Below are positions 5,942 through 26,573 of a stretch of DNA of 32,662 bases, piece by piece. Positions within the stretch are counted from its first letter, which is position 1. Every line of letters begins with the position of its first letter. The DNA is from Candidatus Woesearchaeota archaeon (lineage in GTDB: Archaea; Nanobdellota; Nanobdellia; Woesearchaeales; UBA10200). The DNA is taken from NCBI GenBank assembly GCA_013331615.1, contig DUGA01000012.1:20376-53037 (forward strand), in the 5' to 3' direction. Under the pieces are notes generated by a model, which ran no database searches, had not been told where the DNA came from, and saw only the letters and a list, made by a program, of their open reading frames with translations. Both the position numbers and the translations under genes were made by a program.

Positions 5942-5992
5942 ATTAAAATGATAGAAAAGTATATATAATTATTAATAATGAAGGTGGTAAAA

Positions 5993-6679: not shown

Positions 6680-6699
6680 AATATAATTCTTCTATTTAA

Positions 6700-6712: not shown

Positions 6713-6717
6713 TAAAT

Positions 6718-6726
6718 CTTATATAG
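6718..6726 (+). promoter_or_regulatory. TATA box candidate for the 759-aa protein gene
   Basis: CTTATATAG in an A/T-rich setting. It predicts a start near 6745-6750 and a leader of roughly 95 bases, longer than usual for this window, so a closer unrecognised promoter is possible. Confidence 0.35.
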
Positions 6727-6842
6727 TTTAATATACTACTAAAATAAGAGAAAATAAATACTTCCACTTATTACTATCTGTAAAATTCAGGATAAAGATG
6801 TTGCATCATCTTAACTCATATTAAAAGATAAAAAAGAGGGCA

Positions 6843-9122: not shown

Positions 9123-9140
9123 TTAGATTTTTTATACTTA

Positions 9141-9149
9141 TCTATATTA
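9141..9149 (+). promoter_or_regulatory. Possible TATA box for the structured intergenic element
   Basis: TCTATATTA lies about 26 bases before 9171, where the 5' strand of the closing stem begins. This is the spacing expected if the structured element is an independently transcribed RNA. The surroundings are AT-rich, so a chance match is quite possible. A T6 run at 9128-9133 may end the upstream transcript. Confidence 0.3.
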
Positions 9150-9170
9150 TGGTTATTACTTAAATAATTT

Positions 9171-9399
9171 GCTAGGCGCCTTAATCTTTACAGATTAAAA
9201 GCGGCGGCTGCCTGCGAGCATTTACAGATAAGGTGGAAGAGTTGCTCCTCCCAAATTTTACGAAAATTTGATAAAAGTGTGCGACATGAAGTCGCACTAA
9301 CGGCTTAGCCAATGGTTTGCCTTGCCCGTCGCAACTTAGTTTAGTTACTATTATTTATGCTCGCAAAAATTGGCAGCCGCTACTTTTTAGGCGGCTAGC
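9171..9399 (+). ncRNA. GC-rich structured intergenic element, candidate non-coding RNA
   Basis: This fills most of the only gene-free stretch over 300 bases (9123-9497) and is visibly richer in G+C than its flanks. Direct base pairing: 9171-9180 with 9390-9399 (nine of ten pairs, one G-G mismatch); hairpin TTAATCT/AGATTAA at 9181-9198 with loop TTAC; 9204-9212 with 9372-9380 (GCGGCTGCC, perfect) continuing as 9213-9220 with 9358-9365 (TGCGAGCA, perfect) with a six-base bulge; hairpin CAAATTTT/AAAATTTG at 9252-9270; hairpin GTGCGAC/GTCGCAC at 9279-9297. The 3' arm can instead form a local hairpin (9375-9396). I do not recognise it as tRNA, SRP RNA or RNase P RNA. A degraded copy of the 5' quarter occurs at 22705-22760, so it could also be a dispersed structured repeat. 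Strand is assumed from the promoter-like sequence and neighbouring genes. Confidence 0.45.
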
Positions 9400-9437
9400 G
9401 TATTGATAATCATAAATTCCCTTTTTGCTAAGAAACA

Positions 9438-9445
9438 TTTATATA
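9438..9445 (+). promoter_or_regulatory. TATA box candidate for the 2831-aa giant gene
   Basis: TTTATATA within AAACATTTATATAGG predicts initiation near 9466-9470. That gives a leader of about 30 bases containing GAGGG at 9486-9490, seven bases before the ATG at 9498. Confidence 0.5.
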
Positions 9446-9497
9446 GGAAGAATAGTTTAATTAGCTCAATAGTAGAATGAAAAAAGAGGGTTTGTTC

Positions 9498-12400
9498 ATG
9501 CCAAGAAACAAGATAGGATTAGTAATATTTCTAGTGTTATTTACTTTGATAATTGCAGCTATGAATTCAGTTATTGTGTTTGCGCCTACTAATGAACAAG
9601 CATGCTGCATAAATCCGGAAGTGCCGTCTTTCTGCCTTGATGAAAAAGCATATCCAGGAACCCAAAATCCATATGCAGATATCACTGACTGCTGTTTTGG
9701 AGACCAAAGCTGTGCATCAAAATTCTTAAGAAAAGGAACATCCTGCAACTCACTGGATGAATGCAAAACAGGCGCAATTACCGGATGTTGTACAGATGAA
9801 TGTACTGCAGGAACACAATCGACATGCAAAGATTCATCAAGCTTTAGCGCAGTAAGCTGTGATAATGTAGCAAAATGCAGCACAGGATGCTGCCTTTGTA
9901 CTGAGAATGATAATCAAAAAATCGCTTTCAATCTGATCACAGAGCCAGAGTGCAAAAGCGATTGTCAAGATAGAGGATATGGCACTTATGACTTTAATCC
10001 GCAACAGCAAGACTGCAGGATAGGAACTAAACTTGCAGGCAAGACTGTCAAAGGAAGAGTTACTGATACATCAGGAGTGCCATTGGAAAAAGCAACTGTA
10101 ATCCTTGAAGGCATAGCACAGTATGAGACATTGCCAGACGGCAAGTTTGAAATTGCAGATGTGCCTCCAAAAGCAGATCCCTATAAGATAAAAGTAATAA
10201 AGTCAAGGTATCTCTCAAATTTTACCTCATTTACTCTTGTTTCAACAGATGCAGAAAAGATAATAAATTTTGAGCTTGGACGGGCATCATTTGGGACAAT
10301 CTCTGGCATTATAACTGAAGATGGAGATCAATTAAAGCCTGTGCCTAATGCAGTAATAAGCGTAAGCGGCATTGGCCAAGATACAACTTATTTATCAGAT
10401 GAGAAAGGCGAATATTCCTTATTGTTTCATCTAGCTGGGCAGCCAATAGATTATATAATTCAAGTTTCTGCACAAGGATATGTTTCAAAATCAGAGATAG
10501 TTACACTACCTTCTTCTATGGGTAAGAATGATGTATTACAAGATTTTAGATTGCCAAGAAAAAAGCCAGGAATATTAAGGGTAGTAGTAAAAGAAATTAA
10601 AGGCAACATAGAAATTGGTGTAGTTGGAGCAAAGGTAACTCTTAACACAGGATTGCAAAGATTTACTCTAAGCGACGGAAGTGTAGTATTTGGCGGAGCA
10701 GATAGATTCTCTGATAATCTCTTTGAAGGCAATTATACTGTAGATGTGTTTAAGGGAAATTACCTCTCTAATAGGACAACAGACTTTGATGTAAAGCCAT
10801 GGTTTGAAAATGTTCTTAAGGTAATTCTAGCAAAGGATAATGACCTATGCCATATGCAGGGAAGTACAAGGCCGCTAATATTTGAGGAGTATATCAGAAA
10901 TGGCACATGCTCGCAATTAAACAAGCCATACTACTGTCAAAACGGAGACCTAGCAAACAACCTAAATGAAGTTGTCTATACCAGATGCCAAGGCAGAGAT
11001 AATATTCCAGGGACAGTAGATGACTGCTGCCCAGCAAATGAAGAATGCCAGTCAACAGGATATTGCCTGCCAAAAGATACTGAATGCACAAGCTCATGCA
11101 CATATAAAAACAGCTTAGTGTGCAGAAGCGAATGCAATGGATTAGCAGGCTGTACTTTTCCAAATGATGTTGTAAATAGGTCATGCAATGGAAAACTTTC
11201 CGGAATTGATATGATACAATATGGCGTAGATGCAGAAGGCTTGCCTATGAATGTTATCTGCTGCAATAACTGGCCACCAAGAACATCAAAAAAAGAAGAT
11301 TGCACTAACAATGCAGATGATGACGGAGATACAAAAAAAGATTGTGAAGATGAAGATTGTTATCAAAAACAATGCCATTCTACGAACAAAAACAAAATCT
11401 GCCAAACATATAATTTTGGTGATGATAAAGGCAAATTAGGAGAATGCAGAGCAAAGCCATGCACTTCTGGCGAGATTACAGCTGATAATGCAGGATGCTT
11501 ATGCAATGGGGTAGAGACAATAGAAGGAAATTTTTGCTGCGATCTTGACAATAATGATATTAATCACGGAAGATATACTACAAATGCAGAAAATGATTTT
11601 ATAAATTCTCCATGCGGCAATACTCCATGCAGATTAGCTCAGCCAAGGCAAGGAACATGCTGCAGGGCATGCAAAGAAACTACTACACCGGGCAGCTTGT
11701 TAAGATTAGGAGAGAATGCCTGCAATGCACTAGGTATCAAATGCTGCTTGCAATGTGACATAACTCCAGAGGATGTTTGTGAATATAGGTCATTATGTCC
11801 TGCAATTTTTGATACGATCGAAACAGATCCGACAAAAACAACAAATGTAAGGTGCGCAGGCAAATGCAATAAAGTTCAGGAATGTGTTGCAAATAAGCCA
11901 ATATATGATTTTACTTATAACTCGCCTTTATGCAGATGTGGAGAGCGAACTTTCCTTGTGCCTTCATCAGATGCATTTAACAATAATTGCTGCAGAGATA
12001 CAGCAGATGGACCATTATATGTCACTAGGCAAAATTGTCTTGGAGCACCAGAGCTTGGAAAGATAACTGGCTATGTAAAAAAATCACCTGACCTAACGCC
12101 GATAAAAGATGCAACAATCTGCAGTTCGCCAACTAATTGTTATGAGACAACAGATGAAAATGGAAAATTCGAGATAAGGGTGCCGTTTGGTGCCCAGCGT
12201 TCTTATTATGCAACAAAAAAAGGATTTAAGGATTATACAGTGTTAAGCAAAAATCCTAATACTGCATCATCTATTACAGGAAATCAACTTAAGCAAAGTG
12301 TAATCATTTCAAAACCTCCTACTTCTGGAGCATCAAGTACGAGTGTACCAAGCTCAAGCGCAGCAGCACTTCCTCCTAATATATTAGAGCAAGACTTAAC

Positions 12401-15400
12401 TCTTGGTACCATAAAGCTAACAGATTTTGTGTTAGAGCAAGATATAGATATCTGCACAGAAGTATTGCCTCCTGTAAAAAACTTTACAGTTAATCATACA
12501 TTAGGAGAAGTTAAAAAGATCAAGCTCAAATGGGGCGTCCCTATCGAGTGTATCAATAATATAATGGGGTATAGAATAACCAGAACACTTGTGCCTATTG
12601 TGCCTAGCACAGGTTCTGGCAGCAGTACATCTTCATCTACATTATCAGGCAGCGCACAACCAGTTGAACTTCCTTTTGTACCTCGCACTAAAGATGGATA
12701 TCTTGATATTGATGTCAATTATGACACTACTTACAGCTACGAAATAAAAGTGCAATACTTAGGCAAGGAGCAATTAAGTGAGGCAAACACTTCAAGAATA
12801 AGAGTTGGTGAGCTTAAATGCGAAGGGATGTTCAGGAATAATCAGCCTGTACAGTTCTGCGCATTAAATGTAAACAATAAATTAGTTGATAAGAGAGTAT
12901 GTAACACCCAAAACAGGGTGATAGAGCAAGTTATAGAAAGCTGTGATCCAAATACTCAAGTTTGCTCAGGGCCTAATGTAGCAGGATTAGCAATCTGCAA
13001 AAACCTCTCTCAATGCAGCACAAGAAAGCAGAATGCATTTCCGTTTGGGCTGTATTTCGAGAAGGAAAAATGTTTAGGAACAGATTCTTTAGGCAATGTT
13101 GACTATAGCAATAACTGTTTTTTCGATTACTATAAATCAGATGAAGCAGATCCAAATAAGATATATGATGTTGTTGAAAGGTTTGGGACAGAAGTAATAA
13201 ACCATCAGGTAACTCCATTTGATAAATGCCTTAGCTGTCCTGTGTCACAAGCAAGCAAGATGAGCTGCTTTAATTATAGGTCAGAGTATGCATGCACAAC
13301 AGATAACTGCAATCGCGGCAATGGAGCATGCAGCTGGATAAATGCAAGCTTCAGCGAGTTTGGGTTAGGCTATTGTTATGCAGAAAATTACACAGGCAGT
13401 GATAATTGTGATATGTGCAGCGAAAGTAATGATGTATTCTTCAACACAAGATGCAGCCAAAAATTATGCTCAAAATTAGGAAGATGTTTTGCAGCAGAGC
13501 AGGAAGCAGCGTGCAAAAAATGTTCTGAAGCAAGATGCGAGGATCTCAAGACACAAGAGTTATGTGTATCAGGAAGCGCAGACGGAGAGATCAAGATAGG
13601 GAGAGATGCAATTATCAACTACAGCAAGGATGCATGCAGTTTAGGCAGGTGCAAATGGCAGGCAGATAAATGTATAAAAGATGGAAATGCAAATGATGTG
13701 GATGATTGTGATGTAGTTGAATTAAGAAATATAGATCCTGATTCAGGAAGATTACTTGAAGCATGTAAGCATGATAATAATGCAACCGTGACAAAATTAG
13801 ATAGGCCTCGAGCATTATCATTGATAAACAGGCAAACCCAAGATTTATTTTTTGCAGTTGAATCAAATGAGCAAAATGCATATACCTTCTCTTACTGCAT
13901 AGACAAACAGGACAAAGCAATTAAATGTTATCCGGGGGCAAACACTTTAGGCGGAGGGGAGATTGCATATGGTGGTAAAAAAGAAGTTAAGCTTCAAGTA
14001 GAAGATATAATCAGAAGCTTAGAAAAGCAAGGATATGATAATCCAGACTTAGATTACTCAGACACTTATTACATCAGATTTTTCTCAACAGATAAATTCT
14101 ATAACCAAGAAGATGTAAAAATATTGCCTGTGTATATTGATATATGGGCGCCTAAGCTTACATCTAGTATTATTAAAAATATAAACATGGAAGGAACTCC
14201 AGTCAATAAAGACACAAAAAGCCAGCTATTGTTTACAATAAGCAGTAATGAAGATGTGCATTGTAATTTTGAGGATTTAAGGATTAAAGGCATCGGAAGC
14301 ATTGATGCAAGCAAGACAATAAGAATCCTGACAAAGAATGATAAAGATGAAGATCTTTATGATGATGAGTTCAACAGCCAGTATGTTGTGAAAGATGGGT
14401 TATATAGCTATAGAGTAACCTGCCACGATAAAAGCTTTAACTCAGCAGAAATACTTTACGATGGAGATACTGCAGTACATATAGATGCATTCGGTGATAT
14501 AACTGTCCTTGAGCCTGTGACTAAACGAGTTTTTAATGATAACAATGTATTCTTTAAGGTCAAAACAACAGACTCAAGCATATGCAAACTAGCAAGTCTT
14601 CCTTCTGGGAATACGCTTACAGGTGCTGATGCTGAGTTCAAGTCAACAGACAAGCTAATACATACTTTAACTTATCCTGTAACGGTGCTGAATACAGACA
14701 GGGTTTCTGGCACTGATTTCAAAAGCCAGCATTATCCAGACATTTCTGGTTCAGGGTATGGTGTCAAATGCACTTCTATTTTAGGGGAGCTAGAAGATCT
14801 TGAAGCATTTGAATTTACAGTTGACACGACTCCGCCAAATATTACTTTAGTCATTGCATCTAATCAAATAGGAGGCCAGTTAAACTTTGACAAAGTTAAT
14901 GATGACCAGTTTTTTAAGGAATATGGAGATACTATCGGATTAAGCATCTTATGCCAAGACACGCAGATACAAGGAAGCGCTCAGGTATTTGGAGCAAAGC
15001 CAAGCTCAGAAAAGATATGCATGACAGAAGACATTACAGGATGTGATAATCTGCAAAGGGATAAGTTTGTTTCAATAACTTCTGTTGGCAGCATTCAGGA
15101 AACCCAACATCTTTGCTTTACATGTGAAGATAAAGGCGGCAATATTGCGCCTGTAAAATGCGGAGATATAATTGTAGATAAGCAAGGGCCTCAATTTATA
15201 TTCACTGTTTATGACGATTCTGTTACAGCAAATACTGCAGTAAAAATTCTGAAAAGACAGCCTTTAAACTCTAAGTTTTACAGGGCAGAAGTTATTTCTA
15301 CAGAAAATCTAACTGGAGATGCAGTCTTATTATTCAGAATCAAAAGGTATGATAAAGATGGGTTCATTGAGTATGCGCCAACAATAAAAATTCAGAAAAA

Positions 15401-17993
15401 GCTAAACCAGCTTGCAAATCCTTTAAGAGTAGTTTATGAAGGGAGTTTTGCTGTCCCATTGGCAGAGGAATTCAACAATTTAGATAATAGGGATACTGTT
15501 CAGATTGTGATAATAGGCAAAGATAAATTCAATAATCAGGGAAGGTTAGCGCAAAATTATACCTTTGATACTACTTCACCTAAAGCTCCTCTCTTCAACC
15601 AATATGAAAATACAGCAACAAGATATGCAGGACAAGGGATATTTGACCAGACAGGATTTGAAGCAGATAAGGTTGCTAATAGGAATATAATAATTGAAAG
15701 AGGAAACAGACCAAATATAGTGAGAGTGAAAACTCTTAATGTTAGGGGAGTGACTATGAATACGTTGCAAGAGGTCGGTGTTTCTAGAGCACAGAATCTA
15801 GTACAGCAAACACAAGATCAATCTCAACCTTCTCAACCATTACAAACAACAACTTCATTGCCACAAACTACAACAGCACAACCACAAACCTCTCTTTCAA
15901 GAAAATCTTTTTCAACCTATTCGACACCAGATCCTGTCCTAAGAAAAAGAATAAAACTAGATGCTCTACTTGAAGGTGATAAGTTAAAATTAAAGGATGC
16001 TGCAGATTTAGACCTAACAAAGTATTATCTTGAATTCCCTGACATCAAACTTCCGACAAAAAGATTCTATAAGATAGAAAAAGTTCTTGATGGCACAGAG
16101 GTTGATACTATCAAGCAAAGAATTGTAAATAGGTTGACATTGAAACAAAGCCACTTGGCTGCACAAGCAACAAATAAGGCAGCTAATTCAGCAGATAATA
16201 AAAATAAAGGCAGAAATGACGACGATGATAACAATGATAGAGATAACAAAGGTAATAGTAATGCTAATAACGATCATGATAACAACAATAACAGAAACAT
16301 AGTCAGCTCAACCGGCAGGGTAGTTCTTAACTTGATAACAGGAAACGCAGCAGGGGATGCAACAACTAATAGTGATACATTAACAAGCTCAACGACAACT
16401 GGATTTATATTATCTTCTCCCTCCTTAACTGCAGTTGAGCAGCAAGATCCAAATTCTAAATTTATAAATATCGGCAGGACATTATATGGATTGGAAACTG
16501 TTAAAGAGGAAGACCTTGATACGCAGTCACAGTATAAAAAAGATCTGGTCGTCAATGTTTATGAAAGAGCAGAGCCTTTGGGATGGTTCAATGCTAATAT
16601 GGACTTGCCAGAAGGCAGCACTTGGTTCTATGCATATGCAATCGATGAGAATAATAACCTAGGATTGCCTACAGGCGTGAAGAAAGTTATCAAGGACACT
16701 AAGGCTCCAGAGATACTTCATTATGGGCCAAGTGAAAACTCAAAAATCAGCGCAAATTTAGGAGTTAATGTATTTGCAACATTCACTGATCTTAATTCAG
16801 GCGTGAAAAGAGAGACAGCTGTATTGGAGATAGATGGCAAGAGGCATACATGCGATGACCCAGATGATCCTGTAGTCTGCATTGGAACAAAAACATTCAC
16901 AATCTCAATAACACTTCCATTAAAACAACAAGGGCAATACACTGCAAAAGCAAGTGTGTCAGATGTATTAGGCAACTCACCACAGCCATTTGTGTGGAAT
17001 TTTGTTATCAACAATGATGCGCCAAGCAATATCAGGTCAGAGGCTTTAGCAGGAGCTTGCATCCAGAACGATAAATGCTATGTAAATAATACAAAGCCAG
17101 AATTTAAGCTGCAGTATGATGCTTTGCCAGAAGTTAACATAACTGCAGAGTTTAAGTCTGATATTATTACAGCATTAATCCAGAAGATAAATGATTTTTT
17201 CAACATACAGCCTGCGCAAGAGTTGACTGAAGGCCAGCATTCAATCGATGTGATGCATAAAAATTCAATAACATCAGCAGAGTATCCTAATTTTGTCAAA
17301 TTTGTTGTTGATACCACTTACCCTGATGTATCGATAGATAGTATAGCACCAACAAGCTCTAAATCAATAAATATCACTGGCAATTATACTGAAGATAACG
17401 TATATGAGATCAGGTTTTCAGGAGATATCAAGCAGACAGAGCCAATGACATATAGAGAGCTTCCTACTGATCTGCTTACAGACGATGCTGGAAAATCACA
17501 ATATCTGTTCATCAAGAATGTTGAGCTAGATATAAGCAATGCAAGTAAGCCTGGAAAAGAAGTGAAGATCACTATAATAGATAAGGCAAACAATGCTAAG
17601 GAAATCACTCTTACTGTGTATTATGATGTTATTCCTCCTAATTTTGAAAATGTAACAGTAAAGACGATAGCAGCTGGCAAAAAAATATTTGCAACAGAAG
17701 GCAAGAATGAGACTGCGTATAAGACAAATGATGTAAATGTAAAGATCTCTGGCAAAAGCACAAAATCATTGTATAGCATGATGCTGGCAACAGAGTATAT
17801 CACTAAAGTTGTCAACATTGACAGCACTGGATTGAATTTTGATGTTGATCTTGAGCTCATTAACACATTATCACAGACAAAAGAAGAGCATGTGTTATTG
17901 CAGGCAGAAGATGATGCAGGCAACAAACAGTTTTATTTCATGCTTGTAGAGCTTGATATACATAAACCAGAGGTTGAGATAAAGATCATATAA
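9498..17993 (+). CDS. Giant secreted multidomain surface protein (2831 aa)
   Basis: The start at 9498 is preferred over the in-frame ATG at 9477 because GAGGG sits seven bases before it and it gives a clean Sec-type signal (basic PRNK, then hydrophobic 5-25). Regions (from 9498): Cys-rich segment with CCINP, DCCFGD and CCTDECTAG motifs; three carboxypeptidase-regulatory-like beta domains (about 182-262, 266-340, 357-445) of the GRVTDxxGxPLxxATV type; more Cys modules, including EDCTNNADDDGDTKKDC at 600 (the CxNxxDDDGDxxxDC metal-binding-type motif); a fourth regulatory-like domain (about 853-925); a Ser/Pro linker; an FN3-like domain (about 990-1107); another Cys-rich stretch; several Ig-like repeats; a Gln/Ser/Thr linker (about 2098-2145); an Asp/Asn-rich linker (about 2228-2270); then further Ig-like repeats to the end. 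No C-terminal anchor is visible. Likely an extracellular adhesin or stalk; no catalytic motif was recognised. Confidence 0.85.
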   Translation: MPRNKIGLVIFLVLFTLIIAAMNSVIVFAPTNEQACCINPEVPSFCLDEKAYPGTQNPYADITDCCFGDQSCASKFLRKGTSCNSLDECKTGAITGCCTDECTAGTQSTCKDSSSFSAVSCDNVAKCSTGCCLCTENDNQKIAFNLITEPECKSDCQDRGYGTYDFNPQQQDCRIGTKLAGKTVKGRVTDTSGVPLEKATVILEGIAQYETLPDGKFEIADVPPKADPYKIKVIKSRYLSNFTSFTLVSTDAEKIINFELGRASFGTISGIITEDGDQLKPVPNAVISVSGIGQDTTYLSDEKGEYSLLFHLAGQPIDYIIQVSAQGYVSKSEIVTLPSSMGKNDVLQDFRLPRKKPGILRVVVKEIKGNIEIGVVGAKVTLNTGLQRFTLSDGSVVFGGADRFSDNLFEGNYTVDVFKGNYLSNRTTDFDVKPWFENVLKVILAKDNDLCHMQGSTRPLIFEEYIRNGTCSQLNKPYYCQNGDLANNLNEVVYTRCQGRDNIPGTVDDCCPANEECQSTGYCLPKDTECTSSCTYKNSLVCRSECNGLAGCTFPNDVVNRSCNGKLSGIDMIQYGVDAEGLPMNVICCNNWPPRTSKKEDCTNNADDDGDTKKDCEDEDCYQKQCHSTNKNKICQTYNFGDDKGKLGECRAKPCTSGEITADNAGCLCNGVETIEGNFCCDLDNNDINHGRYTTNAENDFINSPCGNTPCRLAQPRQGTCCRACKETTTPGSLLRLGENACNALGIKCCLQCDITPEDVCEYRSLCPAIFDTIETDPTKTTNVRCAGKCNKVQECVANKPIYDFTYNSPLCRCGERTFLVPSSDAFNNNCCRDTADGPLYVTRQNCLGAPELGKITGYVKKSPDLTPIKDATICSSPTNCYETTDENGKFEIRVPFGAQRSYYATKKGFKDYTVLSKNPNTASSITGNQLKQSVIISKPPTSGASSTSVPSSSAAALPPNILEQDLTLGTIKLTDFVLEQDIDICTEVLPPVKNFTVNHTLGEVKKIKLKWGVPIECINNIMGYRITRTLVPIVPSTGSGSSTSSSTLSGSAQPVELPFVPRTKDGYLDIDVNYDTTYSYEIKVQYLGKEQLSEANTSRIRVGELKCEGMFRNNQPVQFCALNVNNKLVDKRVCNTQNRVIEQVIESCDPNTQVCSGPNVAGLAICKNLSQCSTRKQNAFPFGLYFEKEKCLGTDSLGNVDYSNNCFFDYYKSDEADPNKIYDVVERFGTEVINHQVTPFDKCLSCPVSQASKMSCFNYRSEYACTTDNCNRGNGACSWINASFSEFGLGYCYAENYTGSDNCDMCSESNDVFFNTRCSQKLCSKLGRCFAAEQEAACKKCSEARCEDLKTQELCVSGSADGEIKIGRDAIINYSKDACSLGRCKWQADKCIKDGNANDVDDCDVVELRNIDPDSGRLLEACKHDNNATVTKLDRPRALSLINRQTQDLFFAVESNEQNAYTFSYCIDKQDKAIKCYPGANTLGGGEIAYGGKKEVKLQVEDIIRSLEKQGYDNPDLDYSDTYYIRFFSTDKFYNQEDVKILPVYIDIWAPKLTSSIIKNINMEGTPVNKDTKSQLLFTISSNEDVHCNFEDLRIKGIGSIDASKTIRILTKNDKDEDLYDDEFNSQYVVKDGLYSYRVTCHDKSFNSAEILYDGDTAVHIDAFGDITVLEPVTKRVFNDNNVFFKVKTTDSSICKLASLPSGNTLTGADAEFKSTDKLIHTLTYPVTVLNTDRVSGTDFKSQHYPDISGSGYGVKCTSILGELEDLEAFEFTVDTTPPNITLVIASNQIGGQLNFDKVNDDQFFKEYGDTIGLSILCQDTQIQGSAQVFGAKPSSEKICMTEDITGCDNLQRDKFVSITSVGSIQETQHLCFTCEDKGGNIAPVKCGDIIVDKQGPQFIFTVYDDSVTANTAVKILKRQPLNSKFYRAEVISTENLTGDAVLLFRIKRYDKDGFIEYAPTIKIQKKLNQLANPLRVVYEGSFAVPLAEEFNNLDNRDTVQIVIIGKDKFNNQGRLAQNYTFDTTSPKAPLFNQYENTATRYAGQGIFDQTGFEADKVANRNIIIERGNRPNIVRVKTLNVRGVTMNTLQEVGVSRAQNLVQQTQDQSQPSQPLQTTTSLPQTTTAQPQTSLSRKSFSTYSTPDPVLRKRIKLDALLEGDKLKLKDAADLDLTKYYLEFPDIKLPTKRFYKIEKVLDGTEVDTIKQRIVNRLTLKQSHLAAQATNKAANSADNKNKGRNDDDDNNDRDNKGNSNANNDHDNNNNRNIVSSTGRVVLNLITGNAAGDATTNSDTLTSSTTTGFILSSPSLTAVEQQDPNSKFINIGRTLYGLETVKEEDLDTQSQYKKDLVVNVYERAEPLGWFNANMDLPEGSTWFYAYAIDENNNLGLPTGVKKVIKDTKAPEILHYGPSENSKISANLGVNVFATFTDLNSGVKRETAVLEIDGKRHTCDDPDDPVVCIGTKTFTISITLPLKQQGQYTAKASVSDVLGNSPQPFVWNFVINNDAPSNIRSEALAGACIQNDKCYVNNTKPEFKLQYDALPEVNITAEFKSDIITALIQKINDFFNIQPAQELTEGQHSIDVMHKNSITSAEYPNFVKFVVDTTYPDVSIDSIAPTSSKSINITGNYTEDNVYEIRFSGDIKQTEPMTYRELPTDLLTDDAGKSQYLFIKNVELDISNASKPGKEVKITIIDKANNAKEITLTVYYDVIPPNFENVTVKTIAAGKKIFATEGKNETAYKTNDVNVKISGKSTKSLYSMMLATEYITKVVNIDSTGLNFDVDLELINTLSQTKEEHVLLQAEDDAGNKQFYFMLVELDIHKPEVEIKII

Positions 17994-18086: not shown

Positions 18087-21000
18087 ATGCCAAAGAATTA
18101 TCTTTCAAAAAGAGGTGAAAAGCTAGCTGATAGCATAGTTAAAGTAGCAGCAGCCAGATTATTTCTTTTAAGATTTTTTCTTTTATCTCCAAGATTATTA
18201 ATCTTATCTACAATCATTTTAATCTTATTATTGCTTATCTCTTCAGCTTTTGTATCTGCAAGCCATGGAGCAAGCTGCTTAGAGATCACAAACAGACGCC
18301 CTATATTCCAAGTTAATTTTGATGAGCCTAGCAACCTGAGCCTTTTTGAACTCATAGCAATAAAAGGCAATGCTAAAACTCCTGTGCCTGTAACTGTTCC
18401 AGATCTCTTGATCAATTTTTCCAAATATTATGAAGCAAGCGTGAATGATCTATTAGACCCAAGCGTAAAAGATTATATCTTAAAGCTTAAGGCAATTGAT
18501 TTTTTTGACAATGAAAAGGATTATGAGCAGTGCTATCATTATGTTCCAAGAGCTACTAAGATCACTCTTGTAGAGCCTGAGTTTGGGTATTCTTCAGTCA
18601 AGCCATTTACTGTAAAGATAAAGACAGATGCATATGCAACATGCAGATACAGCATAAACACAGATCTTAATTATGCAGATCCTAATCCTGCACAATCGAT
18701 GGCGGCTTTTAAGGAAACAGCTTATGTGTTAGAGCATACAGTAGATATTAAGGCAGAATTATTTCCAGACAATAATACAAATATAGCAATTAAGCTATAT
18801 GTAAAATGCAATCGCACAGATGGAGAGATTAATCAAAGGTCAGAAGCTTTTGAGTTTCATGTAGATAGCACAAAGCCATTCATACAAGAGGTTAGGCTTT
18901 CTCCCCAAGGCGGAAATAAAGTCTCAAACAAGCCATTGCAGACAACTGTGATGGCGACAACAGATGAGGCAGCAAGATGCAAGTACAGTCTAACGGGCAT
19001 AGCAGATTATAATCTGATGGAATCAAGATTTGATGATTATAACAGCTTCTCAGCAGCAAGCACTTCACGTAGCCATAGCTTGAATTTTCCAGGATTAGAA
19101 GATAAGAAAACATATAACTTAAAGATTGCTTGCGAGAATAAAGCAAAATTAATCTCTGATGTAAATGATTTTATGTTTGAGACAGATAAGAATGCAGATG
19201 ATACGATAACCATATTAAAGCCAAACTTCACGCAAATATCTAAACTGCCTGTAGAGCTTGAAGTATTGACAAACAGGGATGCACAGTGTGTAATAAGCAT
19301 GCTGCCAGCGCCTGGAAGCCCGATTCAACCACATAACACTAATCTATTAATCCATAAGCTGAACAGTATTCCTGGAATAAGCGCTCAAGGTAGATATAAT
19401 TTTACGGTGCATTGTGATTTCTTAAAGTCAGGCGGAGCAAAAGCGCCAAAAGAGCTTGCATTAAATCTTCTCTATGACTCACAGGCTCCAGAGATTCTTA
19501 ATTTTACAACTCAAAATACATGCATCGCAAATCAGGTGCATGTCAAATGGACAGCAAAAGACCTGATATCTGAGATCACTGGATATAGGTATAAATTAAA
19601 CGCAAATACAGTTGAGCTCTTTAACTGGTCAGAAACAAGAAAATCTGAAGTAAGGCTTGACGTTTCAAGATATGATGTGAATGCATCTGCTGATACAACT
19701 TATACTATAATAGTGGCAGCTAAAGACAGCGCAGGCAACCTAGATGCTGTAGGCAAAAAAAGCCAGAAATTAGAAGTGTCTAATCCAGGTAAAGCAGAAT
19801 GCCTTGAAACTATTGCTCCAAAAAGTAATCTAACTAAAGAGTTTAAGGACAATGCAGCATATATCACAGTCACATGCCAGGATTTAGGCGGCTCTGGATG
19901 CAATCCTGAAAGCTACCTCTATAATGCAGTTGATCTAAGCGCTTCTTGTTCTGCTTCACAAAAATATACAGCAGCTGTTAAAGTTACCAATACTGCAATC
20001 TTCTGCTGGAAAGTTAGCGACCATGCAGGAAATAGCCATCAAGGAGAAGAAAAAATAATCCTAAACATAGATTCAGATGGTGATGGAATTCCAGATAGTA
20101 TAGATAAATGCAGCAACACTCCTAAATCTGAGAAAGCAGATTCTATAGGGTGCTCTCCAAGCCAAAAAGATGATGATAATGATGGCATCCCAAATGACAA
20201 AGACATCTGCCCAGAAACAATACAAGAAGCAATTGATGCTCAGGCAGTAAATTCTTCAGGATGCTTAAAAGACAGTGATAATGACGGCATGCCAGACTAC
20301 TGGGAGATGAAGTATAAGTTTGATATCAATGATCCGAGCGATGCAAGTAAAAACCCAGACCTTGACGGAGCAAATAATCTTCAGGAATATTTACAAGGCA
20401 CAGACCCATTAGTCTCTGATGTTGACTCAACAAAAATCCCAGATAAAGATGGAGATGGAGTGCCAGATACTCTTGATAAATGCCCAGAAACTACAGCAGG
20501 AGATAAGGTAAATCCTCAGACAGGGTGCTCAACAAAGGACATTGACAAGGATGAAGATGGAATGTCAAATGAGTGCGAGCAAAAATATGGTTTAGATAGT
20601 GAGAATGCAGGTGATGCTGAAGAGGATAAAGATAATGATGGCTTAATTAATACAGAAGAATGCAATTTTGAAGGATGCGAGCTTGAGCTGGATCCAAATA
20701 ACCCAGATACAGATGAAGATGGATATAATGACGGCAAGGAATATGAACAAGATACAAGCCCTTGTGATGCTGAAGATAAGCCGGCATCTGCAATATTGCA
20801 GTATATATTGCTAGGAATAGGAATCCTCTTTTTATCTACAGGAATAGGATATTTAGCATATAAGAAATTTGTTTTAAAAGAATCTATAAGCTCTTCTGGC
20901 TATGGTAATAGAACTTCTAAAGAATATAAATTAGGTTCTTTAGAACATCCTCAAAGCATAAAAACAAGTTTATCTCAACAGTCTAAAGCAGTAGCTCAAC

Positions 21001-21977
21001 ATAGGCAGATATTTGTAAAAAAACAGCTTACATCAGAGCAAAAAAGAAAAGCTGCTCTGCAAAAAATAAAGGAAGAAAGAAAACAAGGAAAAGTAAAGGA
21101 ACTAAACAGAGCATTTTCTGGGTTTGGAACCGGAGAATCTGCTAAAGAAGAGCCAGAGATCAAGAAGATTGAGCTGCCGACAAGAAAAGCGCATAGGATA
21201 GATGCTAGAGATATGACTGGAGATGCATCAGATGGAGTATTGCATACCTCTCTTATACACCCAATTAAAAAAGCAGGTACTGCAATCAAGAATATTATTT
21301 TGCCAGAATCAATTTCTAGCCAAACTAAAGAACTAAGCTCTAAAGAACCGACAACCAAAGAAGAAATCGGAAGCCGTCTAAAAATACAAGATAAAAGATC
21401 ATCTGGATATAATAAAATAGAGGAATTAACCAATTCAAATACAGCTATCACAAGGCTTAAAACATTGGCTAAGTCAGCAGGCACAAATAACCGCATCAAA
21501 GAAATGATCACTGCTCCATTATTTAAATTTAAAGACTTGCTTCAAGCAAAAACCTATGGTACATTAGAAAACCTTACAAGGAAAGAAGTTCCATTAGAGC
21601 AATTAAAAAAATATACTCTGCATAAAGAAGACATCAAAAAAATAGTAAATGAAGCTAAAGATGGGAAGGATGAAACACAAGTAAAAAAAATATTCAATGA
21701 ATTGGCAAGCATGAACAAAGATGATGCGCAAAAAGCAGATGCATTCTTAAAGCTATCGCAGGCAGTTAAAGGAAACTTAGATATAGATGAAAAGGATATA
21801 TTCAAGGAACTGCCTAAGAAACTAGTACCTGAGACAAGCAAGGAAGCTGCTGCTTTCACTAAATTAAGCAACATATTAGAAGGAAAGCCCGTAGATGATG
21901 GTATCAAAGAATTATCTAAATTACGCGCTAAAAAGACGAGCATTGATTATCTGAAGATGATGGCTGGGAAAAAATGA
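18087..21977 (+). CDS. Transmembrane surface protein: Ig-like and TSP3-like ectodomain, long cytoplasmic tail
   Basis: The 1296-residue product has a long basic and hydrophobic N-terminal signal (about 23-58). It is followed by at least three Ig-like repeats, each with a similar strand carrying a Cys (YATCRYSINT, AARCKYSLTG, AQCVISML), and an FN3-like domain near 470-560 with WTAKD and SAGN. At about 661-898 is a run of Asp-rich calcium-binding repeats (DSDGDGIPDSIDKC, DKDGDGVPDTLDKCPET, DTDEDGYNDGKEYEQ), typical of TSP3-like rigid stalks. A single membrane helix follows (about 900-926, LQYILLGIGILFLSTGIGYL) with basic residues after it, putting a tail of about 370 residues inside the cell. 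The tail is Lys/Glu-rich with coiled-coil-like stretches (KRKAALQKIKEERKQGK near 985) and helical repeats near the end. Unlike the other giants it crosses the membrane, so it could anchor the apparatus or pass a signal inward; that is inference. Confidence 0.85.
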   Translation: MPKNYLSKRGEKLADSIVKVAAARLFLLRFFLLSPRLLILSTIILILLLLISSAFVSASHGASCLEITNRRPIFQVNFDEPSNLSLFELIAIKGNAKTPVPVTVPDLLINFSKYYEASVNDLLDPSVKDYILKLKAIDFFDNEKDYEQCYHYVPRATKITLVEPEFGYSSVKPFTVKIKTDAYATCRYSINTDLNYADPNPAQSMAAFKETAYVLEHTVDIKAELFPDNNTNIAIKLYVKCNRTDGEINQRSEAFEFHVDSTKPFIQEVRLSPQGGNKVSNKPLQTTVMATTDEAARCKYSLTGIADYNLMESRFDDYNSFSAASTSRSHSLNFPGLEDKKTYNLKIACENKAKLISDVNDFMFETDKNADDTITILKPNFTQISKLPVELEVLTNRDAQCVISMLPAPGSPIQPHNTNLLIHKLNSIPGISAQGRYNFTVHCDFLKSGGAKAPKELALNLLYDSQAPEILNFTTQNTCIANQVHVKWTAKDLISEITGYRYKLNANTVELFNWSETRKSEVRLDVSRYDVNASADTTYTIIVAAKDSAGNLDAVGKKSQKLEVSNPGKAECLETIAPKSNLTKEFKDNAAYITVTCQDLGGSGCNPESYLYNAVDLSASCSASQKYTAAVKVTNTAIFCWKVSDHAGNSHQGEEKIILNIDSDGDGIPDSIDKCSNTPKSEKADSIGCSPSQKDDDNDGIPNDKDICPETIQEAIDAQAVNSSGCLKDSDNDGMPDYWEMKYKFDINDPSDASKNPDLDGANNLQEYLQGTDPLVSDVDSTKIPDKDGDGVPDTLDKCPETTAGDKVNPQTGCSTKDIDKDEDGMSNECEQKYGLDSENAGDAEEDKDNDGLINTEECNFEGCELELDPNNPDTDEDGYNDGKEYEQDTSPCDAEDKPASAILQYILLGIGILFLSTGIGYLAYKKFVLKESISSSGYGNRTSKEYKLGSLEHPQSIKTSLSQQSKAVAQHRQIFVKKQLTSEQKRKAALQKIKEERKQGKVKELNRAFSGFGTGESAKEEPEIKKIELPTRKAHRIDARDMTGDASDGVLHTSLIHPIKKAGTAIKNIILPESISSQTKELSSKEPTTKEEIGSRLKIQDKRSSGYNKIEELTNSNTAITRLKTLAKSAGTNNRIKEMITAPLFKFKDLLQAKTYGTLENLTRKEVPLEQLKKYTLHKEDIKKIVNEAKDGKDETQVKKIFNELASMNKDDAQKADAFLKLSQAVKGNLDIDEKDIFKELPKKLVPETSKEAAAFTKLSNILEGKPVDDGIKELSKLRAKKTSIDYLKMMAGKK

Positions 21978-22095: not shown

Positions 22096-22698
22096 ATGAC
22101 ATCCTCAAAACTTTTTGATAACAAAAAACATAGCAAAAAAGCTGAAGTTGCTTCACAGATATTTGTCTATATAATAGCATTAGTGGTAGTAGGCATGGTA
22201 ATCGTCTTTGGGTATAAGGCAGTAAAAAGCTTTGCTTCAAGAAGCGATGAAGTCGCATTGATAAAGTTCAAGACAGAGGTTGAAAACACTTTTAAGCAAG
22301 TGAGCTCAAACTTCAACACAATCAAGGTAGAAGATTTTGACATACCTTCAGGGTATGAGGAGATATGCATAGTTAACCTTAATGCGCACCAGAGCATAAG
22401 CGAGTTTACATATGAAGAGTTTGAAAGATATAATCCTATACTATATGAGGGCGTCCAGGAAAAGAAAAACTTGTTTTTAGTAAATGGAATATATATAGAG
22501 CCTTTTAATGTCGGCAAAGTGGCATTGGATATAGACACGCAAACATCGGCAAATAAGCCAGATGCGTGCAACGGAGACGGCAAGGAAAACCCTACTGCAG
22601 ATGATGGGTATCTGATGTGCATCAAATCTAAAAACTCAAAAGTCAGGATGAAGCTTAAAGGCAAAGGAGATAAAACTTTTGTCTCATGCGTACAGTAA
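22096..22698 (+). CDS. Pilin-like minor subunit candidate (200 aa)
   Basis: The N terminus is MTSSKLFDNKKHSKKAEVAS, followed by the hydrophobic helix QIFVYIIALVVVGMVIVFGY. K14-K15-A16-E17 matches the basic, small, acidic/Gln pattern of archaeal class III signals, so cleavage is expected between A16 and E17 (inference). The ectodomain of about 155 residues begins with an amphipathic helical stretch (SDEVALIKFKTEVENTFKQV), as in pilins where the N-terminal helix runs on beyond the membrane, then a beta-rich head with Cys at EEICIV, DACNGD, LMCIKS and VSCVQ. I recall similar proteins in DPANN genomes but know no characterised function. It is the first of four mid-sized pilin-like genes. Confidence 0.75.
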   Translation: MTSSKLFDNKKHSKKAEVASQIFVYIIALVVVGMVIVFGYKAVKSFASRSDEVALIKFKTEVENTFKQVSSNFNTIKVEDFDIPSGYEEICIVNLNAHQSISEFTYEEFERYNPILYEGVQEKKNLFLVNGIYIEPFNVGKVALDIDTQTSANKPDACNGDGKENPTADDGYLMCIKSKNSKVRMKLKGKGDKTFVSCVQ

Positions 22699-22796: not shown

Positions 22797-23987
22797 ATGT
22801 TCAAGAATCTTAAAAAGAGGCTGCATAAGAAAGCAGATGTGGAGATCCAGATAAACTGGATTTTTATAATAATTGTAGGCGGAATAATATTGATATTCTT
22901 CATTGGCCTTATAATGAAGCAGAAAACAGTCTCAACAACTAAGCTTAACATAAACATAAGAGAAAGCCTAGATACGATATTCACTAGCTCTCAGGTTGCA
23001 TCTGGCACTGCAAACCTGATCAACACTCCAGATCTGGAAGTTGATTTTGACTGTGATAATTATTATATAGGAGATTTTGATTCAGGGATAAGCAAGTCAT
23101 TAGGCAAGACAAGAATCATCTTTGTGCCAGACAGGTTAGAAGGCAAGCAGCTTGTTACCTGGAGCATGGAATGGAATATGCCATATAAGATCGTAGATTT
23201 TCTCTACATAATACCTAAAGATGTAAGGTATATCTTTATTTATAATTCTCAAGATGAAAAAACATTTGCAGAAGAGATTATCAGCTTAATGCCAAAGGAT
23301 GTACAGCCAGAGTTAGTGCATGTGAATGAGATTAACGCATTAAAGCATACAAACAGTTATAAGACAAGATTTGTCCGTTTTTCTAATGAAAGATTATCAG
23401 GACAGCTTGATAAATCATTTGAAAAAAAGGACCTTAGCTATATAAGCATTGTTCCAGACCAAAACAGCAAGGAATCTGGCAAGGTTGTATTTGTAATTTA
23501 TGCAAAAAATGCAGCAAGCAATTCTTATGACTTTGAACTTGCACGTAATACACAAGATGCGAGTACTCTACCATACATGGATTACAATCCAGAGTTTGTG
23601 ACTGAAAAAAGATATCCTACATTATTTGGCGCAATCATCTCAGATAATATAGACCTCTATGAATGCATGCTCAAAAGAGCTCTAAATAGGCATTCTTATA
23701 TCACCTCAATCTATGATAATAGGATGCAAAAAATAATTGCAGCAACTAACCAGGATAACCATCCTTTGAAACAGCGCAACTGTGTTTCAGGGATGTATGA
23801 TGTTACTGACCCTCTACAATTGGGTAATTTAGGCAATTGTTTAACAGCTAATCCTCTTCCATGTCTAAGCAAAACTATTGAATATTGTAAGGGAGATTTA
23901 GGCAATTGTGATCCTTATCCTAATGTGCAGGCATTAGTAAGCGTAAACAAGAAAGTTCAGGATAATTCATGCCCATTGGTATATTAA
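22797..23987 (+). CDS. Pilin-like protein with large ectodomain (396 aa)
   Basis: The N terminus is MFKNLKKRLHKKADVEIQ, then the hydrophobic helix INWIFIIIVGGIILIFFIGL. K11-K12-A13-D14 fits the same class III pattern as its neighbours, with Glu at +3 of the expected mature protein. The ectodomain of about 350 residues has an initial polar helix (NINIRESLDTIFTSSQ), then alternating beta/alpha-like segments (RIIFVPDRL, YIFIYNSQDEKTFAEEI, GKVVFVIYAK), and a C-terminal Cys-rich part (ECML, RNCVSG, NCLTANPLPCLS, EYCKGDLGNCDPYP, NSCPLVY). No catalytic signature was recognised. Its place between other pilin-like genes suggests it acts with them, perhaps as the largest, tip-located minor subunit; this is inference. 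The upstream gap holds the partial repeat. Confidence 0.75.
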   Translation: MFKNLKKRLHKKADVEIQINWIFIIIVGGIILIFFIGLIMKQKTVSTTKLNINIRESLDTIFTSSQVASGTANLINTPDLEVDFDCDNYYIGDFDSGISKSLGKTRIIFVPDRLEGKQLVTWSMEWNMPYKIVDFLYIIPKDVRYIFIYNSQDEKTFAEEIISLMPKDVQPELVHVNEINALKHTNSYKTRFVRFSNERLSGQLDKSFEKKDLSYISIVPDQNSKESGKVVFVIYAKNAASNSYDFELARNTQDASTLPYMDYNPEFVTEKRYPTLFGAIISDNIDLYECMLKRALNRHSYITSIYDNRMQKIIAATNQDNHPLKQRNCVSGMYDVTDPLQLGNLGNCLTANPLPCLSKTIEYCKGDLGNCDPYPNVQALVSVNKKVQDNSCPLVY

Positions 23988-24018: not shown

Positions 24019-24555
24019 ATGGCAAAAAATATATTATTAAAATTACAGCACAAAAACAGAAAAGCCCAGATGAAGATGATGGAGAATGTAGCAATAATGA
24101 TAATATTCTTCATGCTCTTGACATTAGGGTTTATTTTCTATGGCAAGATAGGAGGCCATAGCGCAAAGCAAGACATAGAAAAATTTGCTCAGCAGAGAGC
24201 AGTAAAGCTTGCAAAAATTGTGGCAGCATTGCCTGAAGTAAGATGCTCAGAAGAAAATGTACCTGTACAAGACTGTTATGACCTGTTAAGAGTGGAAAGC
24301 GCAAAAACCCTTATCGAGAATAATTATCAGTATTATCTTGAGATATTAGGCTATAGTAGAGTCGCAATCGAAGAGAAATATCCTGGCAATGCAACATTGA
24401 TCATATATGACAATCAGCCAGACATAAATGCAGTGTCAAATATCGAGGAGATAAGGTTCAGCTATATACCTATCTATATTCCAATTACATTATTCAATGC
24501 AACTATCAATCAATATTCATTTGGGGTGCTAGAGGTAGGGACTTATGATAAGTAA
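24019..24555 (+). CDS. Pilin-like minor subunit candidate (178 aa)
   Basis: The N terminus carries K12-N13-R14-K15-A16-Q17 and then MKMMENVAIMIIFFMLLTLG, again a class III signal (expected cleavage before Q17). A Glu at +6 of the predicted mature protein sits near the Glu5 position important in many pilins. The helix continues beyond the membrane as a charged, amphipathic run (AKQDIEKFAQQRAVKLAKIV), a classical pilin feature. The head contains a Cys pair (RCSEENVPVQDC) and a beta-rich C terminus with PIYIPITLFN. It begins 31 bases after the 396-aa gene, so both are probably on one transcript. Confidence 0.75.
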   Translation: MAKNILLKLQHKNRKAQMKMMENVAIMIIFFMLLTLGFIFYGKIGGHSAKQDIEKFAQQRAVKLAKIVAALPEVRCSEENVPVQDCYDLLRVESAKTLIENNYQYYLEILGYSRVAIEEKYPGNATLIIYDNQPDINAVSNIEEIRFSYIPIYIPITLFNATINQYSFGVLEVGTYDK

Positions 24556-24599: not shown

Positions 24600-25169
24600 A
24601 TGATTAAAAATAATCTATGCACAAAATCACAGATGGAAATAATGGGAATAGTTATCATAATCATATTATTCTCTGTAGGATTATTGTTTGCAATACAGTA
24701 TATCATATTAAAAAAGCCAAGCGATGTCAAGAAATCATTTCTGCAGGCAGAACTATCATCCAATAGCTTGAATGCGATGCTTAAAACCAATGTAAAAGAA
24801 TGCAATAATGCAGACATGGCTGCTCTATTTAAAGACTGCGCAGGAGCTTCACAAGAGCTTGACTGCTGCATCAAGCTTGCACCAGATCAAGACTGCATAT
24901 ATGATGATAGTCAAGGCACTATGGGCATAGCAGACAGCTGTCATATGTTGAATGAAACAGTCTCAAAGATACTTCGTAATACTTTATTTTTATGGAGAGT
25001 GCCATATGTATTTACAGCATATTATGTTGAATCAGACCCATTGCCATGGACAGAAGGCATAACAAGCAGTCCAGAAATGCCTTGCAGCTTGGAAGATATC
25101 GGAAGGCCGCAGGAATTTACCCTGCCGACAACCCAAGGTAACCTTAGGATTGTGCTGAAGGTGTGTTGA
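24600..25169 (+). CDS. Pilin-like minor subunit candidate (189 aa)
   Basis: The N terminus MIKNNLCTKSQMEIMG leads into the helix IVIIIILFSVGLLFAIQYII; K9-S10-Q11 is the class III site. The ectodomain starts with a polar helix (DVKKSFLQAELSSNSLNAML), then Cys-rich segments (VKECNN, KDCAGA, LDCCIKL, QDCIYD, DSCHML) and a final beta region ending in VLKVC. Nine or so ectodomain Cys suggest disulfide stabilisation outside the cell. The gene lies 44 bases after the 178-aa gene and before a gap with its own TATA box, so it probably ends the mid-sized set. Function unknown. Confidence 0.75.
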   Translation: MIKNNLCTKSQMEIMGIVIIIILFSVGLLFAIQYIILKKPSDVKKSFLQAELSSNSLNAMLKTNVKECNNADMAALFKDCAGASQELDCCIKLAPDQDCIYDDSQGTMGIADSCHMLNETVSKILRNTLFLWRVPYVFTAYYVESDPLPWTEGITSSPEMPCSLEDIGRPQEFTLPTTQGNLRIVLKVC

Positions 25170-25256
25170 GTGTGTAATGTAATAAAATCTAATCAAAATC
25201 CTCATTATTTGCCTAAAGCCATAGAAATATTTAAATACATCATATTATAATAGTCA

Positions 25257-25267
25257 AGTATATAAAT
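25257..25267 (+). promoter_or_regulatory. TATA box for the micro-pilin cluster
   Basis: AGTATATAAAT is a strong archaeal TATA match. It predicts initiation near 25288-25292 and a leader of about 25 bases that ends in GAGGTG before the ATG at 25313. This is the clearest promoter/ribosome-site combination in the surface block and suggests independent, possibly high, expression of the four small genes. Confidence 0.6.
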
Positions 25268-25300
25268 TTAATACGTTTATACTAAAACATTATGATTAAA

Positions 25301-25306
25301 GAGGTG
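25301..25306 (+). promoter_or_regulatory. Strong ribosome-binding site fixing the start at 25313
   Basis: GAGGTG lies six bases before ATG 25313. It falls inside the reading frame if the upstream ATG at 25292 were used, so it argues for the downstream start. Confidence 0.65.
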
Positions 25307-25312
25307 TTGTCT

Positions 25313-25597
25313 ATGTTTAAATCAAAAAAAGGCCAGGGAATGACTTTAAATGTCGTAGTAGTTGCAGCGATTGTGCTGTTAGTTCTAGTCGTGCTTGTTC
25401 TTATATTTACAGGCAAAATAGGCAATTTTGTAGGAGAAAGCGAAAAGTGCGTAACCAAAGGCGGAACATGCATTGCAGCTAGAGATGGGTGCAATAGGGC
25501 AAATTTAGAAGCACCGGTAAACGCTAAATGCTATAAAGCAACAGATCCTACTGCAGTAGATGATAGCCAAGTTTGCTGCATAAAAGTTGGCGCATAA
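25313..25597 (+). CDS. Six-Cys micro-pilin 1 (94 aa)
   Basis: The first of four tandem paralogues. MFKSKKGQGMTLN leads into VVVVAAIVLLVLVVLVLIF. The KKG-Q site is an almost textbook archaeal class III cleavage context, with the mature protein expected to begin QGM. After the helix comes TGKIGNF, a juxtamembrane [S/T]GK-[I/L/F]-x-x-F motif shared by all four. The head of about 50 residues has exactly six Cys: C-x6-C (CVTKGGTC), x6-C, x12-C and a terminal CC. The mature size of about 87 residues is small for a pilin. Inferred: bulk subunit of a thin disulfide-stapled fibre. Alternatively it could be a small membrane-resident protein that is never polymerised. Confidence 0.8.
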   Translation: MFKSKKGQGMTLNVVVVAAIVLLVLVVLVLIFTGKIGNFVGESEKCVTKGGTCIAARDGCNRANLEAPVNAKCYKATDPTAVDDSQVCCIKVGA

Positions 25598-25630
25598 TTA
25601 TCTTAATTGTTTTATTTATCTTATCTTAAA

Positions 25631-25891
25631 ATGAAATCCAAGAAAGCCCAAGGAATGCCTATAAATGTTATCATCATAGCAGTCATAGCTTTGATTCTCC
25701 TTGTTGTTATCCTTGCAATTACATCAGGCAAATTAAAGGTATTTGGGAAAGGGACGGCTAACTGCAAAGCGCAAGGTGGAGACTGTGAGCCAGTAACATT
25801 TTGTGTAAAACCAAAATATACAGATGTATTGGGAACAGATTGCGAATCTAGAACAGATGGAAAAACACTCTGTTGCATAGCATTATATTAA
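25631..25891 (+). CDS. Six-Cys micro-pilin 2 (86 aa)
   Basis: The start at 25631 gives MKSKKAQGMPIN followed by VIIIAVIALILLVVILAI; an upstream in-frame TTG at 25607 would add residues unlike the paralogues. The class III site is KKA-Q. SGKLKVF follows the helix. The six-Cys head is C-x6-C (CKAQGGDC), x5-C, x12-C, and CC near the end, matching micro-pilin 1. The gene starts 33 bases after its neighbour, with no obvious ribosome-binding site, consistent with co-transcription. Shortest of the four. Confidence 0.8.
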   Translation: MKSKKAQGMPINVIIIAVIALILLVVILAITSGKLKVFGKGTANCKAQGGDCEPVTFCVKPKYTDVLGTDCESRTDGKTLCCIALY

Positions 25892-25892
25892 C

Positions 25893-26246
25893 ATGAAATC
25901 AAATAAAAAAGCAGATCTCTCTATCCAATTGATAGTTGTTGTTGTTATTGCATTAGTTATCTTGGTTGTTGTTTTAGGCATTACTTCAGGAAAATTAAAG
26001 ATATTCGGAAGCAGTGCAGCAAGCTGTGCAGTAAGAGGTGGTGAATGTGTGTCATCAGGTGCTTTGGCAAGCGGAAAATGCCGTGAAGGATCAGTAGAAA
26101 TCCCAGGAACAGATTGTGAATTACCAAGCAAATGCTGCCAGGAAATATTTAAGACAGACCAATTAAAGGAAAAAGGCTTAACTTCTGGAATAGATTTTGA
26201 AGATAAAGTAGTACCAGCAGCTGCAAAAGATAGAAGCTTAGTATAA
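25893..26246 (+). CDS. Six-Cys micro-pilin 3 with C-terminal extension (117 aa)
   Basis: MKSNKKADLSIQ leads into LIVVVVIALVILVVVLGI and then SGKLKIF. The class III site is KKA-D, so the usual Gln is replaced by Asp, as in the 396-aa protein. The head keeps the six-Cys layout: C-x6-C (CAVRGGEC), x10-C, x11-C, then CC. Unlike its siblings it carries about 30 extra polar residues after the CC pair (from QEIFKTDQ to the end), which could be an exposed tail or a contact surface. Only one base separates it from micro-pilin 2, so the two are surely co-transcribed and perhaps translationally coupled. Confidence 0.8.
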   Translation: MKSNKKADLSIQLIVVVVIALVILVVVLGITSGKLKIFGSSAASCAVRGGECVSSGALASGKCREGSVEIPGTDCELPSKCCQEIFKTDQLKEKGLTSGIDFEDKVVPAAAKDRSLV

Positions 26247-26255
26247 ATTATCAAA

Positions 26256-26573
26256 ATGAAAATTAAAAATTCAATAATGATACAAGATACAAAAAAGGCC
26301 CAGGGAATGCCGATAAATATAATCATCATTGCAGCAATAGCTTTGATTGTGCTGGTTGTGCTAGTTGTAGTCTTCTCTGGTAAATTCGGCAAATTCGGAA
26401 CCGGTGTAGATGATACTGCTAATAGTTTCAAGAATATGTGTGAAATACCTGGAACGAGCAGGGAATGCGTTTCTTCAATTGCACAATGCACACCAGATAA
26501 AGGCACAGAAATCCGTGGAATATTTACAGACTGCGATAAAAAAAGCTCCGGTAGTATTTGCTGTGAAAAATAG
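26256..26573 (+). CDS. Six-Cys micro-pilin 4 (105 aa)
   Basis: Two in-frame ATGs are possible (26256 and 26277); the second gives MIQDTKKAQGMPIN, closest in length to the siblings. The helix is IIIIAAIALIVLVVLVVVF, then SGKFGKF. The class III site KKA-Q and the QGMPIN start of the mature protein are identical to micro-pilin 2. The Cys spacing is looser: C-x8-C (CEIPGTSREC), x6-C, x14-C and a terminal CC, and the GG before the second Cys is lost. It follows micro-pilin 3 by nine bases and is the last gene of the surface block. Confidence 0.8.
   Translation: MKIKNSIMIQDTKKAQGMPINIIIIAAIALIVLVVLVVVFSGKFGKFGTGVDDTANSFKNMCEIPGTSRECVSSIAQCTPDKGTEIRGIFTDCDKKSSGSICCEK

Follow-up and report, generated by a model that had tools for sequence, protein, structure and literature searches.

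The window (the whole stretch of 32,662 nucleotides analysed here) lies on contig C63 of a 1.54 Mb, 64%-complete genome. At 25313-26573 it carries four small genes in tandem, each encoding a protein with six cysteines. Judged by gene order among relatives, they form the end of a larger conserved operon, whose make-up is relevant to their function. Its members, all on the forward strand, are as follows.

18087..21977, + strand: 1296-aa bitopic membrane protein with a TSP3-repeat, Cys-containing exterior; operon partner at 26 loci.
22096..22698, + strand: 200-aa pilin-like protein, 4 Cys; conserved operon partner at 22 loci.
22797..23987, + strand: 396-aa pilin-like protein with 8 Cys beyond the helix; conserved operon partner at 26 loci.
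24019..24555, + strand: 178-aa pilin-like protein, 2 Cys; conserved operon partner at 26 loci.
24600..25169, + strand: 189-aa pilin-like single-pass protein, Cys-rich; usually directly before the tandem, its ortholog group present at 29/41 loci.
25313..25597, + strand: six-Cys class III-type protein 1, 94 aa, head C-x6-C-x6-C-x12-C-x14-CC; an upstream ATG at 25292 is also open.
25631..25891, + strand: six-Cys class III-type protein 2, 86 aa, head C-x6-C-x5-C-x12-C-x9-CC; AlphaFold model mc3f87dc2eca7.
25893..26246, + strand: six-Cys class III-type protein 3, 117 aa, extended at its C-terminus; head C-x6-C-x10-C-x11-C-x5-CC.
26256..26573, + strand: six-Cys class III-type protein 4, 105 aa (98 aa from an alternative start at 26277), head C-x8-C-x6-C-x14-C-x8-CC.

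Ortholog grouping across 41 loci defines a conserved order: the giant protein, the 200-, 396-, 178- and 189-aa pilin-like proteins, and then the six-Cys tandem. Nearly all of the 26 homologues of the giant protein share its Cys-containing exterior, C-terminal helix and Lys/Arg-rich, Cys-free cytosolic tail. In many relatives the cluster continues downstream of the tandem with more pilin-like proteins, as far as a class III-like protein that precedes an RPA-like gene. In the window an aminoacyl-tRNA-synthetase-like gene follows the tandem; the second half of the cluster, including a fifth six-Cys protein of 113 aa, is found on contig C74 of the same genome. In some relatives, cell-wall hydrolase domains occur on the late class III-like proteins of this extended cluster: Peptidase_M23 at L070, L071, L064, L072 and L043, SLT at L067 and L063, and VanY/M15 at L051 and L063, the matches in L043 and L051 being below the cut-off. 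In archaea that lack peptidoglycan such domains would be surprising, unless bacteria are their target. No hydrolase domain was seen in the window's operon, and none was apparent in the proteins of the C74 half-cluster, which were inspected by eye. Further upstream, at 100-17993, the window encodes very large Cys-rich proteins (one of 1933 aa or more, another of 2838 aa) and a 759-aa class III-type protein; homologues of the 2838- and 759-aa proteins group with proteins in a few relative loci.

The first-pass annotation had attributed a shared design to the four small genes, and the ORFs are as it described them. Each begins with a class III-type site (KKG/Q, KKA/Q, KKA/D and KKA/Q in proteins 1 to 4), followed by a long uninterrupted hydrophobic helix, the motif [ST]GK-[ILF]-x-x-F and a head with exactly six Cys that end in CC. 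Because dN/dS is 0.08-0.37 for each gene in synonymous-site tests against two congeners, we regard all four ORFs as real genes under purifying selection. An antisense ORF at 25883-26506 was rejected in favor of the two conserved sense genes located there. Distances between genes inside the tandem are 1-33 bp. The 143-bp gap (25170-25312) that precedes the tandem includes, near 25230, the AT-rich stretch TTTAAATA and may hold a promoter dedicated to the tandem.

A history of tandem duplication and divergence had also been proposed. Paralogy is evident, with identities to the second protein of 37-48% among the window paralogues. In the tree, the pairing of genes 2 and 3 is younger and lies within the genus, whereas gene 4 falls in an older, distinct clade that spans families (support 100/92); most deeper forks are poorly resolved. 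Protein 4 is thereby a member of an order-wide paralogue clade marked by a longer linker and a CxxPG...C motif. On the topology of this tree, the tandem duplication is partly old.

A profile built from the four proteins detects the family in 93/99 relatives, nearly all of the same order and usually in tandem, so that the arrangement itself is conserved. A wider profile has matches in 341/371 genomes of a sample of the phylum; those examined in other orders of the class have a different Cys pattern that lacks CC. A profile of the head only matches 6/8 genomes of the order as against 1/12 outside it. Because of these two observations we consider the defensin-like head described below to be largely a trait of this order, as far as profile matches define it. 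The earlier reading had been staked on homologues retaining both the Cys pattern and the class III site: within the order both are retained, while sister orders keep the site and the six Cys in another pattern. The six-Cys class III proteins of the sister orders resemble those of the window in their N-terminus, mostly six Cys, small size and sometimes tandem arrangement, but differ in the spacing C-x3-C-x8-17-C-x13-32-C-x6-31-C-x4-12-C, without CC. Cys-rich class III proteins, mostly with six Cys, were noted there at L123, L125, L127, L133, L135 and L137, and in several cases the neighbouring gene encodes a tiny class III protein (about 50-66 aa) that has no Cys. Viral contigs yielded no member of the family.

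The class III site that the first-pass annotation recognized is kept across the order: basic residues occupy each of the two positions before Ala/Gly in 52/53 members, and Ala or Gly stands at the cleavage-type position in 51/53. The helix that follows is predicted to span residues 11-42 in the AlphaFold model of protein 2. Glu at +5 of the predicted mature protein was not found; the position is mostly M, I or L, followed by Asn. Canonical pilins of the same genome do have Glu at +5 (KKAQGATEYL). By its sequence, then, the family has the features of archaeal class III pilins but lacks the Glu at +5 of canonical QGxxE-type major pilins.

Conservation of the six Cys was assessed on small class III-type ORFs that were picked on their N-terminus alone from the 41 relative loci (n=65). 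Exactly six head Cys are present in 55/65, in the order C-C-C-C-CC in 53 of these 55, and the number of head Cys is even in 65/65; when each head is shuffled, the pattern is expected by chance in a mean of 3.84/65. The six Cys are nearly invariant across members, and in the relative loci examined the defensin-like head is essentially confined to small proteins. The spacing is less uniform: C4-8C3-6C9-13C4-7CC fits 15/45 heads. Core net charge has a median of -2, being negative in 34/45 heads and positive in 3/45, so that the net positive charge typical of cationic antimicrobial defensins is rare among them. VKOR, a possible disulfide-forming partner, is present in only 34/99 relatives and is therefore no argument for or against oxidation.

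No Pfam or NCBIfam family reaches its cut-off with these proteins, in line with the earlier statement that no characterized family has this pattern. Single-protein Pfam matches (AtDEF-like, DUF948, WSS_VP and others) fell below the cut-off and were discarded, and single heads gave no significant Pfam defensin match. A head-only profile, built from 26 heads that we selected for regular spacing, gave 19 matches in the PDB, all of defensin fold: the best were tick carboxypeptidase inhibitor (E=3.6e-5 and 3.8e-5), followed by beta-defensin 1, defensin-like peptides and crotamine. When the Cys of the same heads were held fixed and the other residues shuffled, no PDB match was obtained, as a control that the match exceeds the six Cys. 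The whole-protein profile gave only sub-threshold PDB matches, many of them to defensin folds.

Structure prediction of the monomer, which the first-pass annotation had suggested, gave a divided answer. The model of homologue L078 (53-row alignment) has a pLDDT of 86 and consists of a helix at 5-40, a short helix at 43-46 and strands at 49-52, 60-62 and 72-77. Among its Foldseek matches avian beta-defensin 11 ranks first, aligned over 35 columns at 1.4 A with a target-based TM of 0.68 and a probability of 0.87 but a non-significant E of 0.6, and the nine best matches are all defensins or other small Cys-rich peptides, mostly beta-defensins, with E of 0.6 or worse. For window protein 2 itself the model reaches a pLDDT of 74.7, the head is of low confidence (about 57-73), and a Foldseek search with this model returned no match. 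Profile and model together point to a head that is likely defensin-like. Since the heads match the beta-defensin fold, disulfides would more likely form within each head than between subunits.

The closest structural parallels are the trans-defensins (beta- and big defensins) and the tick carboxypeptidase inhibitor domains, the latter being the significant profile match for the selected regular heads. As in these domains, the series of six Cys in the archaeal heads closes with CC; a spacing near-identical to that of trans-defensins is seen in some members (15/45), and a short helix and three strands are predicted. They differ from trans-defensins in being membrane-anchored and acidic and in having longer loops. 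Trans-defensins have been described as having arisen exclusively in animals (PMC7203481). The domain is short, and it is possible that the archaeal-animal likeness reflects convergence rather than homology.

If the proteins are pilins, a peptidase and an assembly engine should serve them. An A24 prepilin peptidase is present in 90/99 relatives, with a copy in the window genome at G000:C31. Contig C89 of the window genome also carries a canonical TadA/TadC locus, which includes a KKAQGATEYL pilin. Near-universal in the relatives is a divergent TadA-like ATPase of 760 aa (PF00437, E about 1e-14 to 1e-17), found in the window genome at C86:31981-34233 (L201:3973-6252); its partner is a 724-760-aa multi-TM protein with weak full-length similarity to T2SSF, that is, divergent and TadC-like. 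This ~760-aa ATPase is about 50-70% identical across the order, and coiled-coil and TM genes adjoin it. At G040:C29, G054:C21, G009:C1 and G063:C16, open frames of 1263-1333 aa contain the ATPase match in two parts, with the break near residues 490-550, the layout that an intein would give. Two of the smaller weak ATPase matches were rejected as pilus engines, since a scan shows them to be PIN-KH proteins.

An earlier count of our own, of 14 good genomes without any engine (PF00482 and strong PF00437 missing), was withdrawn: in nearly all of them the weak ATPase matches proved to be the conserved 760-aa ATPase with its TadC-like partner. Among these 14 genomes, which lack a recognizable PF00482 platform, the six-Cys proteins and the peptidase occur in 14/14 and the divergent ATPase in 13/14; only G068 has the operon with no ATPase or engine match. 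Because neither engine pair (the canonical one on C89 or the divergent one) is linked to the six-Cys genes, and because the divergent engine is present also in genomes in which no six-Cys gene was detected, we infer its assignment to the six-Cys proteins from the phyletic link only.

These observations can be set against archaeal type IV pilins and minor pilins (PMC4858521). Shared are the short basic leader, the KK[AG] site, the continuous hydrophobic helix and the small exterior domain, as well as an operon that includes genes for larger pilin-like and giant adhesin-like proteins, and the presence in the genome of an A24 peptidase and a TadA/TadC-like engine. What sets the window's proteins apart is the lack of Glu at +5, the head of about 40 residues with six Cys and a defensin-like character, the unlinked and divergent engine, and the absence of any Pfam or NCBIfam match above cut-off. 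The parts of the census drawn on here list 90 archaellin and pilin subfamilies and describe Cys-rich type IV pilus loci of Thermoproteales in which conserved cysteines are found in almost all components; those loci likewise combine large S-layer- or adhesin-like proteins with small minor pilins (PMC4858521). They belong to another archaeal lineage, and in the same parts of that source, compared by description only, the six-Cys CC head is not described. An earlier description of the family was not found in the open-access literature on Woesearchaeota pilins and type IV pili or on defensin-like archaeal pilins.

It is probable, on sequence and model, that each gene product is a processed class III protein whose defensin-like head is bridged intramolecularly. 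The cross-linked thin fibre envisaged in the first-pass annotation, with disulfides between subunits, draws on the abundance of Cys in almost every exterior portion of the operon's proteins; we consider it very improbable, as the six Cys of a single defensin-like head are consistent with three bonds inside that head and the number of head Cys is always even. What the helix does is less certain. It may simply anchor each head in the membrane, the tandem then supplying a dense, disulfide-rich coat together with the giant Cys-rich proteins, without polymerization. The absence of Glu at +5, the bitopic membrane nature of the giant partner, the lack of linkage between engine genes and operon, and the operon of G068 with no detected engine all agree with such a coat. 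The class III-type site with a long aliphatic helix is nevertheless typical of pilins, the prepilin peptidase and the divergent TadA/TadC-like engine are near-universal, and several paralogues stand beside four single-copy larger pilin-like genes, as in pilus operons; a non-polymerizing coat is to us a minor, if real, possibility. We lean, by a little, towards assembly of the six-Cys proteins into a filament, and the family probably works like a pilin.

The heads might alternatively be weapons: antimicrobial or enzyme-inhibiting surface domains, similar to beta-defensins or carboxypeptidase inhibitors, that act with the cluster's cell-wall hydrolases against bacteria. Both the defensin-like profile and the predicted fold are in keeping with this, as are the M23, SLT or VanY/M15 domains on extended-cluster class III-like proteins of some relatives. 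Peptidoglycan degradation, together with predation, has been proposed for Woesearchaeota (PMC9723730), and peptidoglycan hydrolases have been found in Nanoarchaeota (PMC12352652). The heads are, however, mostly acidic, unlike cationic defensins, and a classical antimicrobial role fits poorly with their mostly negative charge; neither a soluble nor a secreted form was seen, and hydrolase domains were seen neither in the window operon nor, by eye, in the C74 half-cluster. We regard this role as quite unlikely. Also unlikely, if slightly less so, is an order-wide, dedicated pilus-like machine for holding and breaching bacterial cells. It would combine a divergent TadA/TadC engine and minor pilins with six-Cys, defensin-headed shaft subunits and a base formed by the giant bitopic protein; some lineages would add a peptidoglycan hydrolase of class III-like type.

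The reading we prefer, with somewhat better than even confidence, is that the four gene products, small and of class III, serve as type IV pilin-like subunits in a surface structure near-universal in the order. The A24 peptidase would cleave after KKA/KKG, and the helix would then anchor the subunit or pack into a filament whose assembly is driven by the divergent TadA/TadC-like engine encoded elsewhere. Outside the cell each head is predicted to fold into a three-disulfide, beta-defensin-like domain, and the heads would stud the shaft as hard, protease-resistant knobs; a base or tip may be formed by the giant membrane protein together with the four longer pilin-like proteins. Contact with a host or prey cell is the likely role.

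The archaea of this order are tiny and probably host-dependent, and how DPANN archaea touch their hosts or prey is, to our knowledge, an open question. The six-Cys family offers a near-universal and testable candidate for a surface appendage in one of the largest DPANN orders. It would also place a defensin-like Cys scaffold, described as an animal invention, in archaea as the head of a pilin, and so bears on how often the defensin-like fold arose and on how very small subunits may stabilize a fibre.
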